This document shows, piece after piece, positions 49,539 to 53,604 of a DNA stretch of 64,000 nt. The notes beneath the pieces are model-generated. The model ran no database searches, had not been told where the DNA came from, and saw nothing but the letters and a program-made list of their open reading frames with translations. Every line of letters starts with the position of its first letter. The stretch's first letter is position 1. A program made the position numbers and the translations under genes. The DNA lies in assembly GCF_963667685.1 (NCBI RefSeq), contig NZ_OY763930.1, positions 465,001 through 529,000 on the forward strand, written 5' to 3'. This stretch comes from Maridesulfovibrio sp. (GTDB taxonomy: Bacteria; Desulfobacterota; Desulfovibrionia; Desulfovibrionales; Desulfovibrionaceae).

Positions 49539-50183
49539 CTACTTGGTCAGCTTTTCCCAGTCCGCATTAAAAGCGGCCAGTCCCTTGTCAGTTAGAGGGT
49601 GGGCTGCCAGCTGACTGATGACGTTATAAGGGATAGTGGCCACATCCGCCCCGATCATTGCGGAATCCAGCACATGCATGGGATGGCGGATTGAAGCCAC
49701 CAGGATCTTGGTTGGAAAATCATAATTATCAAAAATAGTCCTGATCTGGCGGATCAACTCCATGCCGTCATGGGCAATTCCATCCAGCCGTCCCACAAAC
49801 GGACTCACATAAGTCGCACCGGCTTTAGCTGCCAGCAACGCCTGCAATGGAGAAAAGACTAGTGTAACATTAGTCTTCATGCCCTTACGGTAAAGGCTCT
49901 TGGTAGCCACCAACCCCTCGTTGGTCATGGGAACCTTGATCACGACATTCTCGCCGAAACCGGCAAGGTCTTCAGCCTCACGGATCATTTCTTCAGCAGT
50001 TTTCCCGACGACTTCCAGACTGACCGGTCCTTCAACTACGGAGCAGATTGCCTCGGCCTGCTTACGCCAATCCCCACCTTCCCTGGAAAGAAGAGTCGGA
50101 TTTGTAGTCACTCCATCCATCAATCCCTGATCCTTGGCCTTCCTAATCTCGTTAAGATTGGCAGTGTCCAGAAAAAATTCCAT
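49539..50183 (-). CDS. Small transaldolase / fructose-6-phosphate aldolase family protein
   Basis: A 214-residue TIM-barrel class I aldolase ([32 protein letters not shown]). The Schiff-base lysine is K83 in [16 protein letters not shown] and [11 protein letters not shown] are further family marks. The family includes small transaldolases and fructose-6-phosphate aldolases, and sequence alone does not decide between them. AGAGGT precedes the ATG. It would feed pentose phosphate interconversion in the cytoplasm. It is divergent from the trp leader region, with no sugar genes next to it. Confidence 0.9.
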
Positions 50184-50351: not shown

Positions 50352-50380
50352 TTGACAACTTTTCAGGAGAGGGGTAAACA
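50352..50380 (+). promoter_or_regulatory. Promoter of the trp leader
   Basis: A perfect -35 TTGACA (50352-50357) and TAAACA (50375-50380) with a 17-base spacer. A second, weaker candidate (TTGACT at 50280-50285, AAATAA 17 bases on) lies upstream and would give a longer leader. Confidence 0.55.
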
Positions 50381-50390
50381 CTTAGCCACT

Positions 50391-50444
50391 ATGAACGTTT
50401 CTTACTCCAACTTTACCCTTTATTCTTGGTGGTGGCGCAGCTAA
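50391..50444 (+). CDS. trpL: Trp leader peptide (three tandem Trp codons)
   Basis: A 17-residue ORF, MNVSYSNFTLYSWWWRS, with three consecutive TGG codons (50427-50435) just before its stop. The downstream hairpins (see the attenuator entry) fit classical translation-coupled attenuation. When charged tRNA-Trp is scarce, the ribosome stalls here, letting the antiterminator form. The best RBS-like sequence (AGGAGAGGGG) is 17 bases upstream, too far for usual initiation, and the nearest promoter would start RNA only a few bases before the ATG. The leader may thus be translated almost leaderless, or the upstream promoter is used. Confidence 0.85.
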   Translation: MNVSYSNFTLYSWWWRS

Positions 50445-50531
50445 TGCGTCGCGGTTGGTTACGTTCAAAAAACAGGTAACATATAACAAAATTATTGAAC
50501 CGCGACAGTGAAAACTGATCGCGGTTTTTTT
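50434..50531 (+). promoter_or_regulatory. Trp attenuator (pause, antiterminator and terminator hairpins)
   Basis: Region 1 GGCGCA (50434-50439) can pair with TGCGTC (50445-50450) around the leader stop. Region 2 GTCGCGGTT (50448-50456) pairs perfectly with region 3 AACCGCGAC (50498-50506), the antiterminator. Region 3 AACCGCGA (50498-50505) alternatively pairs with region 4 TCGCGGTT (50519-50526), followed by Ts to 50531: the terminator. These are mutually exclusive, as in the E. coli trp leader. Confidence 0.9.
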
Positions 50532-50574
50532 ATGCCTGCACAGCACTGTCGTAGAAAAAATTCAGGAGAAAAAA

Positions 50575-51786
50575 ATGACTAAGAACGCAATTATCAATGC
50601 AGACGGCTTTTTTGGTGAATACGGCGGACAGTTTGTTCCCGAGCAGGTTCTTCCTGTCCTGAATGAACTGGCTGAGAATTATGAAAGATATCGCAATGAC
50701 CCTGAGTTCATTGAAGAATTTAATTACTATCTTACAAAATATTCCGGACGCCCCACTCCACTCTACCTTTGCTCCAATCTCACTGAAGAGCTTGGCGGTG
50801 CTAAAATATACCTCAAACGTGAAGACCTCAACCACCTCGGCGCACACAAAGTAAACAACACCATCGGTCAGATCCTGCTTGCTAAACGCATGGGCAAGAA
50901 AAAAATCATCGCTGAGACCGGTGCAGGCCAGCACGGCGTTGCAACCGCAGCAACCTGCGCGCTCATGGACATGGAATGTACTATTGTCATGGGTGAAGTT
51001 GACATGGAGCGCCAGAAGTTAAACGTCTTCCGCATGCGTATGATGGGTGCGAACGTGGTCGCTGCAAAATCAGGCCAGAAAACCCTTAAAGAAGCTGTTG
51101 ACGAAGCTTTGGCCGCTTGGATCGGTGACGCTGAAAACACTTTTTATCTGCTCGGTTCCGCAGTTGGTCCCCACCCGTACCCAAGCATGGTCCGCGACTT
51201 CCAGTCCATAATCGGCCGCGAAGCCAAGCAGCAATGCCTTGAAGATGAAGGACGCCTTCCTGACTACTGCATCGCCTGCGTCGGCGGCGGTTCCAACGCA
51301 ATAGGCATGTTCGCTGATTTCATTGACGATGAATCTGTTAAACTTATCGGAGTCGAACCTTCCGGCCGCGGCCTTGAACCTGGTGAACATGCGGCAACCC
51401 TCTGTCTCGGAGAACCCGGCGTAATGCACGGATTCAACTCCTACATGCTTAAAGACGAAAAGGGCGAACCAGCCCCTGTCTACTCAATTTCCGCCGGACT
51501 AGATTACCCCAGTGTAGGTCCCGAGCATTCTCACCTCAAGGACCTCGGGCGCGCCCAGTACGAGCATGCTTCCGACAAAGAAGCAGTTGACGCTTTCTTC
51601 AAGCTTTCTCAGACTGAAGGGATTATCCCTGCTCTAGAATCTTCACACGCGCTGGCCCACGCTCTCAAGCTGGCCCCCCAGCTCGACAAAGATAAAATCA
51701 TCATCGTCAACCTCTCCGGCCGCGGTGACAAAGACGTTGCTCAGATCGAAGAGATGATCGACAAAGGGGAAATTAAACTGCCTTAA
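50575..51786 (+). CDS. trpB: Tryptophan synthase beta chain
   Basis: A 403-residue TrpB1-type enzyme joining indole and serine. The PLP lysine is K92 in [13 protein letters not shown], the phosphate loop is [10 protein letters not shown], and GPEHSHL and AETGAGQHG are typical. AGGAG precedes the ATG. It is the only gene behind the trp attenuator: a palindromic terminator follows and no trpA or other trp gene is seen in the window. As TrpB1 it normally needs TrpA from another locus. This may be a second trpB copy or the displaced member of a split operon. Confidence 0.95.
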
Positions 51787-51831: not shown

Positions 51832-51874
51832 AATAAACCCCGTAATATAATTATATTACGGGGTTTATTTTTCC
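51832..51874. terminator. 38-bp perfect palindrome; bidirectional terminator
   Basis: Bases 51832-51850 are the exact reverse complement of 51851-51869, without spacer, and a T-run follows (51870-51874). It lies between convergent trpB and the cysteine-cluster gene. Its centre (CCCCGTAATATAA and reverse) resembles the gcv terminator at 35620. Confidence 0.85.
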
Positions 51875-51917: not shown

Positions 51918-52676
51918 CTACATCTGTCCGTTCAGCTTTTCTCCGCCAAGCCATTTGGCATAGCTTCCATCGAAGTCAGTCAGGATCTGGGCCATAAGCG
52001 GCATGAAGGAACAGATATTTCCATCTATACCGAATCCTGCCAGATATGCGGCCTGCCCGGCATATATCAGATCTTTCTGAACCATCACCAGCGCATTCTG
52101 CGGTATACTGATTTTGTTTCTTGAATCAAAACTTTTGCGGCACGCTCCAACGTCCGTGGAAACCCAGTTCCGACCCAAGATAGGACGAACTTCATAAACC
52201 GAACATTTGTCGTCTTTTAAAAACGGACACATTTGAAAATATTTTTTTGCGAATTCTTCGATGCCTGTGGAATCAAGGCCTGAACTGATTTCAATACACT
52301 GCTCTGCCAGTTTGGTAAATTCTTCTGCGCTCCGGGTAGCGGCAAGGTGCAGGGCAATGTGGAATCCTTCCTGCGGAGTAACTGTGATGTGCGAGGAGCA
52401 ACAGTAGGAGCATCCTGCCTTACAGGCAATTTTGAACGAAGGGTCAAGAGATTGTACCTGTCCGAGAATAGCCTTATAATTTGCCTCAAATAACGAAATT
52501 CCCTTTTGGGCAAGCAGTGAGGGAAAAAGTTTCTGGTCCGGTGAAATATTGGCAGAGTCAGCGCATACAGCCATGCTCATATCCCGCAAAAGTTTCTGCA
52601 ACTCTGGATGCAGCTCGAACAAGGGATAAACATTGGCCAGAATGGAATCGATAATTTCGTCAAGACTTTCCTTCAT
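51918..52676 (-). CDS. YkgJ-type cysteine-cluster protein
   Basis: The start is ATG 52676, with AGGAGGAG upstream; a start at 52700 would overlap the transporter gene more. The 252-residue protein has Cys85-x3-Cys89-x2-Cys92-Cys93 (CKAGCSYCC) and a later CPFLKDDKCSVYEVRPILGRNW. This is the CxxCC pattern of YkgJ-like proteins, which bind zinc or an Fe-S cluster. It has no membrane segment. It overlaps the BASS transporter gene by 17 bases, so the two are co-translated, but a joint role is only inferred. Confidence 0.78.
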   Translation of the reverse strand: MKESLDEIIDSILANVYPLFELHPELQKLLRDMSMAVCADSANISPDQKLFPSLLAQKGISLFEANYKAILGQVQSLDPSFKIACKAGCSYCCSSHITVTPQEGFHIALHLAATRSAEEFTKLAEQCIEISSGLDSTGIEEFAKKYFQMCPFLKDDKCSVYEVRPILGRNWVSTDVGACRKSFDSRNKISIPQNALVMVQKDLIYAGQAAYLAGFGIDGNICSFMPLMAQILTDFDGSYAKWLGGEKLNGQM

Positions 52677-53604
52677 GCTCTCCTCCTGAAGAAACAGCAC
52701 GGTTACGGTTGGCTATAAATATCCCCGAAATATTATGCCATAGACTGAATAACGCCCCTGGAAGTGCACTTGCTATACCAAAATATTTTGTAGCCAAAGC
52801 TACCCCCAGTCCGGAATTCTGCATACCGACCTCAATCGCCATGGTCAGACTGTCGCGATGATTGAATCCGGACAGACGCCCTGCCCCGTATCCGGCTCCA
52901 AGTCCTCCAAGATTATGCAAGGCAACAGCGATAAATACAAGCAACGGAAAAGAAGCCAGCATATCGCGATTCAAACCGATAATGCAGGCAACGAGCATTG
53001 AGATAATCAAAATGGATATGGATGGGAAAATATGCAGCAGCTGGTCTAGCCTCTGCTTAAGCAGTCTGCGTAGAACAAGACCATCCACCAGTGGAAAAAC
53101 TACAATCCAGAATACAGATTTTACCATGGGCAAAAAAGGAATCTCGATCTGCTGATTAAGCAGAAGGTAGATGATAAGCGGGGTCAACACTGGAGCGAGG
53201 CAGGTTGAAATCAGGGTCATGGTCACAGAGAGCGCAACATTGGCTCTGGCAAGGTGGGCGATAACATTTGAAGCAGTTCCCCCGGGACAGGCTCCAACAA
53301 CAACCATACCGATCAACGCATCCTGCGGAAGACCTAATAATGCACTTATCCCCACTGCAAGAAGAGGCATAACGGTATATTGCAGCAGTACTCCCATACC
53401 GACAGCTTTATAATTCCTGACAGCCGCCTCAAAATCACTGAACTCCAGAGTCAGGCCCATACCGAACATAATAATGCCGAGACTCACGGCAATATATGCT
53501 TTCATCCATACAAAAAGGACAGGTTGCACAAAAGCGGCAAGACTCAATGCTATTGCCAGTAAAAGAAAATGCCGCTCGATTAACCGGCATACGAAACTTA
53601 TCAT
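52660..53604 (-). CDS. Bile acid:sodium symporter (BASS) family transporter
   Basis: The start is ATG 53604, with AGGAG 5 bases upstream; the GTG at 53610 overlaps that RBS. The 314-residue inner-membrane protein has about nine to ten hydrophobic segments and the BASS motifs MFGMGLTLEFSDF, GACPGGTASNVIAHLA and EVGMQNSGLGVALA. Bacterial BASS proteins carry organic anions with sodium; the substrate is unknown. It is the first gene of a two-gene operon with the cysteine-cluster protein. Divergent from the DUF2156 gene. Confidence 0.9.
   Translation of the reverse strand: MISFVCRLIERHFLLLAIALSLAAFVQPVLFVWMKAYIAVSLGIIMFGMGLTLEFSDFEAAVRNYKAVGMGVLLQYTVMPLLAVGISALLGLPQDALIGMVVVGACPGGTASNVIAHLARANVALSVTMTLISTCLAPVLTPLIIYLLLNQQIEIPFLPMVKSVFWIVVFPLVDGLVLRRLLKQRLDQLLHIFPSISILIISMLVACIIGLNRDMLASFPLLVFIAVALHNLGGLGAGYGAGRLSGFNHRDSLTMAIEVGMQNSGLGVALATKYFGIASALPGALFSLWHNISGIFIANRNRAVSSGGEHEGKS

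Follow-up and report, generated by a model that had tools for sequence, protein, structure and literature searches.

A putative tryptophan attenuator ahead of a solitary trpB gene in Maridesulfovibrio and its relatives

The solitary trpB gene of the window, i.e. of the whole 64,000-nucleotide stretch of DNA that was analysed (G000:C1:465001-529000), appears with high confidence to be governed by a ribosome-mediated tryptophan transcription attenuator of a known kind. The best explanation of this arrangement, and one that we consider quite probable, is that the attenuator acts on a single stand-alone gene of the TrpB1 type, the product of which would most likely serve in indole salvage, making tryptophan from serine and free indole under tryptophan starvation. 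The sequence itself shows the anatomy of the leader, its competing pairings, their conservation and the surroundings in the genome; from it we infer a leaderless start, a response to tryptophan and indole as the substrate in vivo. The novelty would lie in the solitary trpB as the target, in an extra strand of the leader (strand 5) and in a companion arrangement at tyrA. A starvation switch of this kind would provide a testable regulatory argument for what the extra trpB does. No Trp attenuator on a solitary trpB was found described in the open-licence literature of PubMed Central, including the topics of D. vulgaris trpB fitness, stand-alone trpB and indole salvage. Predictions of such attenuators may be contained in Vitreschak et al. 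2004, Merino et al. 2008 or Xie et al. 2002.

Architecture of the trpB leader

A preliminary description of the locus had proposed a 17-residue leader with three Trp codons, followed by an antiterminator and a competing U-run terminator, and a 38-bp palindromic terminator closing off trpB. All of these elements were recovered, the leader at 50391-50444 and the palindrome, which is perfect, at 51832-51869. The antiterminator (50448-50456 with 50498-50506) consists of nine perfect pairs and the terminator hairpin (50498-50505 with 50519-50526) has an energy of about -18.5 kcal/mol. The two are mutually exclusive, as strand 3 is common to both. The protector hairpin, the TTGACA box and strand 5 are additions to the earlier description (Table 1). 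From the position of the leader stop codon, strand 2 would be covered by a ribosome that terminates there and left uncovered by one stalled at the Trp codons, a geometry for which the ribosome footprint is taken at its generally known size.

Table 1. Features of the solitary trpB locus and of the tyrA-trpE junction. Positions are those of the window unless a locus or contig is given.
Feature	Position	Strand	Remarks
-35-like box TTGACA	50352-50357	+	39 nt ahead of leader AUG
-10-like TAAACA	50375-50380	+	17-nt spacer after TTGACA
Leader peptide ORF	50391-50444	+	17 codons, MNVSYSNFTLYSWWWRS*; putative leader read from sequence
Leader Trp codons, WWW	50427-50435	+	sequence
Leader stop UAA	50442-50444	+	sequence
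Strand 1 of protector (pause, 1:2) hairpin	50432-50439	+	within Trp codons and beyond; partner 50445-50452
Strand 2	50445-50456	+	50445-50452 partner of strand 1; 50448-50456 (GTCGCGGTT) partner of strand 3
Strand 3	50498-50510	+	50498-50506 (AACCGCGAC) antiterminator; 50498-50505 terminator 5' arm; 50503-50510 partner of strand 5
Strand 4, terminator 3' arm	50519-50526	+	partner 50498-50505
U-run, seven T	50525-50531	+	continues from strand 4
Strand 5, CACTGTCG	50544-50551	+	complementary to 50503-50510; between terminator and trpB ribosome-binding site
Solitary trpB, TrpB1 type, 403 aa	50575-51786	+	TIGR00263, monocistronic
Perfect palindromic terminator, 38 nt	51832-51869	+	after trpB; -21.7 kcal/mol, then T-rich
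Flanking gene, divergent	49539-50183	-	
Flanking gene, convergent	51918-52700	-	
Candidate attenuator, tyrA end/trpE	L004:11960-12130; G000:C1 ~583960-584130	-	tyrA stop region pairs with 5' arm of U-run hairpin

In the proposed mechanism, RNA polymerase would start at the leader AUG or a few nucleotides before it. When charged tRNA-Trp is ample, the ribosome would pass the three Trp codons to the UAA at 50442-50444 and cover strand 2, the 3:4 hairpin would form and transcription would end at the U-run. With little Trp-tRNA available, the ribosome would stall on 50427-50435, covering strand 1 and leaving strand 2 free, so that the 2:3 pairing would form, the terminator would be blocked and trpB would be transcribed. 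If the leader were not translated, the 1:2 and 3:4 hairpins would form and trpB would be off.

At the window locus, the predicted 5' end of the transcript lies 0-4 nt upstream of the leader AUG. The spacing between TTGAC and the AUG is 34-40 nt in all 31 leaders found in this and related genomes (36 nt in 11 of them, 37 in 8 and 35 in 6), a spread that is somewhat too narrow because the start nearest to 36 nt was taken where there were several in frame; at many leader loci there is only one in-frame AUG. Given such spacing, the usual sigma-70 layout puts the transcript start at the AUG or a few nucleotides before it, and the leader mRNA is thus predicted to be leaderless or almost so.

Both strands of the window were scanned for open reading frames of 8-45 amino acids with WW near the C-terminus, and eight distinct C-termini were found, two on the plus strand, including the trpB leader, and six on the minus strand. 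Among the eight, the trpB leader alone is preceded by a TTGAC box at a distance of 34-40 nt, and it alone is followed by a U-run hairpin. A chance origin of the leader is untenable because it is conserved in 31 loci. The Rfam scan of the window gave no family at gathering score, Trp_leader (RF00513) included. A T-box riboswitch was considered and rejected, there being no Rfam T-box match in the window; nor was any found in 20 relatives from other groups.

In the E. coli trp operon leader (Rfam Trp_leader, RF00513) tandem Trp codons are combined with exclusive 2:3 and 3:4 pairings and a U-run terminator. The solitary trpB leader likewise has tandem Trp codons, strands 1-4 with exclusive 2:3 and 3:4 pairings, and a U-run. 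Unlike the E. coli leader, it lies below the Rfam gathering score, is directed at one solitary trpB, has an AUG that coincides or nearly coincides with the predicted start of transcription and possesses strand 5 at most loci outside Desulfomicrobium. The earlier statement that attenuators normally control whole trp operons is too broad: Sinorhizobium meliloti trpL is described as controlling only trpE(G) (PMC7298713), and a candidate attenuator lies ahead of trpS2 in Streptomyces avermitilis (PMC1262725). The S. meliloti leader is a WWW leader on a leaderless transcript that begins with the trpL AUG (PMC7298713), and the trpB attenuator resembles it in having a single-gene target, a WWW leader and a predicted leaderless start; the target here is TrpB rather than anthranilate synthase, and the passages on trpL in that paper make no mention of a strand 5. 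As an Rfam-based survey places amino-acid leaders mainly in gammaproteobacteria (PMC3766115), the present leaders would extend Trp attenuation to a group outside its focus.

Conservation in relatives and co-variation of the pairings

The sample comprised 59 genomes from the family, 23 of which carry a TrpB 62-100% identical to that of the window. Together with 20 named records (19 of L064-L082, plus L110) these give 43 solitary loci; the same organism may recur between the two sets. A leader ORF with WW or WWW precedes trpB at 31 of the 43 loci and in 20 of the 23 carriers of the sample, the named leader carriers including records of Halodesulfovibrio, Desulfomicrobium and Salidesulfovibrio. 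A U-run hairpin lies behind 30 of the 31 leaders and was not found at L009. The leader is missing at 12 loci (L006, L016, L018, L074 and L075-L082); those without the attenuator include a genome of the same genus (G007) and a rumen/termite group, and L077 has a short ORF containing WW without the attenuator layout. In the record of Salidesulfovibrio brasiliensis (L110) the frame of the solitary trpB is broken, 164 residues being read, and the leader is intact.

A FastTree phylogeny was calculated from 80 TrpB sequences, L110 being left out for its broken frame. All 42 solitary sequences fall together in a single clade with a support of 0.887 (root arbitrary), apart from the operon copies. Since leaders are found in the earliest-branching members of this clade, the leader is probably old and has been lost repeatedly. 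Beside the clade stand lone trpB genes of the Metabacillus/Neobacillus type (L084-L087, L089, L090, L095, L099 and L101), and a scan of two of these loci, L084 and L085, gave no Rfam match. L074 belongs to Desulforhopalus vacuolatus, a member of another family, which has an 81%-identical solitary TrpB and no leader; horizontal transfer of this trpB is possible.

The pairings were examined by comparing each strand's own partner with partners swapped between loci in 29 of the 31 leaders, L012 (short U-run) and L009 being left out. A crude string-similarity rule for dereplication kept 21 of the 29. For the 1:2 pairing the energies were -13.2 kcal/mol with own and -10.9 kcal/mol with swapped partners (0 of 20,000 permutations), and the dereplicated set also gave 0 of 20,000. 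The corresponding values for the 2:3 pairing were -14.5 and -13.3 (4 of 20,000). After dereplication its co-variation is weak (-13.9 versus -13.2; 641 of 20,000), partly because strands 2 and 3 hardly vary.

The 3:5 pairing gave -15.1 kcal/mol with own and -12.6 kcal/mol with swapped partners (0 of 20,000 permutations; 1 of 20,000 after dereplication). Compared with shuffled tails, its mean z was about -2.1 to -2.3, with 17-18 of the 29 loci below -1.5, and a repeat on 26 loci put 15 below that value. The pairing was not found in three Desulfomicrobium-type loci (L070, L071 and L073) and is weak in several further ones. In the particularly divergent L026, strands 3 and 5 have both changed and the pairing is kept. 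Putative strand 5 is conserved at most loci outside Desulfomicrobium. That strands 3 and 5 form an inverted repeat for binding a protein to DNA is the less favoured reading, because the changes are partner-specific, which argues for base pairing in RNA. Because strand 5 sits past the U-run, 24 nt ahead of the trpB start, it cannot decide termination; any action of it would be confined to read-through mRNA, where it may influence folding, stability or translation.

The solitary TrpB and its probable role

The solitary TrpB scores 618.1 bits against the TrpB1 model TIGR00263 (cut-off 392.45). A TrpB2 identity was rejected, the scores being 185.5 against NF009057 (cut-off 366) and 177.7 against TIGR01415 (cut-off 518.85). 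The gene is flanked by a gene of the transaldolase/fructose-6-phosphate aldolase family and a CxxCxxCC-domain gene, both on the opposite strand. The flanks fetched for the 43 solitary loci, usually 1.5-3 kb and shorter at contig ends, hold no trpA, trpC, trpD, trpE, trpF or trpG at any of them. The earlier view that trpB is the only gene controlled thus stands, and no sign of other trp genes co-transcribed with the leader was found. The search for trpEGDCFBA and a second trpB that had been suggested with it revealed a full operon with its own trpB about 61 kb away; this second trpB is 54% identical to the solitary one and adjoins the genome's only trpA match. The lone trpB is therefore additional to a complete trpEGDCFBA operon in this genome. 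A rearranged trp operon was rejected as an explanation in view of the flanks and of the complete operon.

LBCA-TrpB and Pelodictyon luteolum TrpB are stand-alone TrpB1 enzymes (PMC11917138). The window protein shares the TrpB1 type with LBCA-TrpB (5ey5), which is its best match among solved chains (585.5 bits); the operon copy, too, matches LBCA-TrpB best (499 bits). Six residues tied to stand-alone activity of the LBCA type (Res6) are given as E, E, T, S, A and M (PMC11917138); the solitary TrpB has E, N, T, S, F and N, an agreement of three in six, as read by hand from an ungapped alignment with an inferred numbering offset of +2.

Two roles had been suggested for the gene, indole scavenging and compensation for a trp operon elsewhere. 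The latter is not needed, because the operon elsewhere in the genome is complete. Indole scavenging has become the better supported of the two, through the carriers without a match to trpE, trpC, trpF or trpA and the mutual exclusion with TrpB2-type genes. A cell without the other Trp steps can make tryptophan with a lone TrpB only from indole supplied from elsewhere. Six carriers of the sample have no match to TrpE, IGPS, PRAI, TrpA or the chorismate-binding family, and the leader is present in all six; their completeness is 95% (G008), 98% (G011), 96% (G034), 99% (G039), 72% (G033) and 54% (G052). If scarcity of charged tRNA-Trp alone induces the lone TrpB, environmental indole is probably a real source of tryptophan for these sulfate reducers, because genomes in which no other trp genes were detected keep both leader and trpB. 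The proposed conversion of outside indole to tryptophan has a parallel in Bifidobacterium, the TrpB of which salvages extracellular indole (PMC11085991).

Among the 59 genomes, only two have a tryptophanase above cut-off, and the genome of the window is not one of them, so that indole would come from outside or be leaked by the operon's own synthase; tryptophanase as an internal source was rejected for this genome. G042, which is 99% complete, has no trpA, trpC or trpE and no trpB, and salvage is therefore not universal among auxotrophs. G003 (89% complete) is a carrier with trpA, trpC and trpF matches, no TrpE or chorismate-binding match and no leader.

TrpB2 is regarded as an indole-scavenging enzyme. 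Of the 59 genomes, 23 have a member of the solitary clade and 21 a TrpB2-type match, and none has both (Fisher 1.1e-6, kinship ignored); the five TrpB2-type matches that were tested all pass both TrpB2-type models. At 3 of the 20 TrpB2 loci read (L149, L150 and L152, from G028, G013 and G054) a WW leader is present, with TTGAC at 36-37 nt by hand count, WWRWR or WWCWR and then a hairpin; the other 17 have no WW leader with the trpB-type layout. The solitary trpB thus resembles TrpB2 in being a lone extra copy outside the operon and in the kind of leader that these three genes of the family have, and differs from it in the TrpB1 type of the window protein. Read most simply, the two kinds of lone TrpB would be alternatives in one and the same role, regulated by tryptophan. 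The role of TrpB2 (TrpB-like, NF009057/TIGR01415) as an indole scavenger is quoted as speculation in PMC11917138.

Indole salvage has to be weighed against other uses of the gene. With the same attenuator, the solitary TrpB could be a dosage or backup beta subunit that joins TrpA of the main operon under tryptophan starvation, raising flux or recapturing leaked indole. This is rather unlikely: the TrpB1 type, which is normally paired with TrpA, the trpA match in 17 of the 23 sample carriers and the plausibility of leaked indole where no tryptophanase is above cut-off would all suit a backup subunit, but six carriers have no trpA match, the operon copies lie outside the solitary clade, and solitary trpB and TrpB2-type genes exclude each other, TrpB2-type proteins not being known to show the usual pairing with TrpA.

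Promiscuity occurs among TrpB enzymes, and the solitary TrpB might use another nucleophile or amino acid instead of turning indole into tryptophan and be merely Trp-regulated. The strong TrpB1 model score, the specificity of the leader codons for Trp and the presence of the gene where other Trp steps were not detected make this highly improbable. Least probable of all is that the gene is a fragment displaced from an ancestral trp operon, with an attenuator kept by inertia and no special role. Pairings kept despite sequence change, persistence in genomes where no further trp genes were detected, the monophyly of the 42 solitary sequences (support 0.887), and the same layout ahead of unrelated TrpB2 genes all argue against such inertia, to which the ordinary trp operon type of the leader and its absence from 12 of the 43 loci would be agreeable.

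The tyrA end as a possible leader of the main operon

The genes of the main locus lie on one strand in the order pheA, EPSP synthase, tyrA, trpE, trpG, trpD, trpC, trpF, trpB, trpA. Pfam matches above cut-off were obtained for pheA, EPSP synthase, tyrA, trpE, trpG and trpD and also for trpA, trpC and trpF; TyrA and TrpE did not reach some of the NCBIfam cut-offs. The C-terminus of tyrA reads ASWWWRENNT* and stands directly ahead of an attenuator-like hairpin of trpE.

Among 47 trpE loci, tyrA is upstream in 36 and has WW near its end in 34 of these. A hairpin rule was passed by 17 of the 34, all with WWW, and these 17 were taken into the pairing test. In them a segment that begins at the last Trp codons and extends slightly beyond the tyrA stop pairs with the 5' arm of the hairpin, at -21.8 kcal/mol with own and -17.4 kcal/mol with swapped partners (0 of 20,000 permutations); the mean z is -3.1 and 16 of the 17 are below -1.5. 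The main trp operon may thus have a full-length enzyme gene, tyrA, as its Trp leader. The other 17 loci keep WW without a recognised terminator, and the Trp run of tyrA therefore probably has a role in the protein too. No description of tyrA as a Trp leader was found in the open-licence literature of PubMed Central. For the D. vulgaris cluster aroA'>aroB'>aroQ-pheA>aroF>tyrA>[trp operon], a putative attenuator is drawn at the start of the cluster and not before trpE in the scheme given in PMC1173090.

A tentative reading, possible rather than probable, joins the two arrangements into a Trp-starvation regulon of the Desulfovibrionaceae with two attenuators, namely a five-strand leader of the indole-salvage trpB, with post-termination control by strand 5, and the 3' end of tyrA as the leader of trpE-trpA. 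If this were true, strand 5 would compete for strand 3 in read-through mRNA, giving a second level of control beyond termination, and translation of an enzyme, rather than of a small peptide, would decide the transcription of trpE to trpA. Strand 5 and the putative leader embedded in tyrA raise new mechanistic questions. Of the 11 trpE loci without an adjacent tyrA, four (G040, G026, G006 and G017) have, as judged by eye, a short leader-like stretch with WW before a hairpin.
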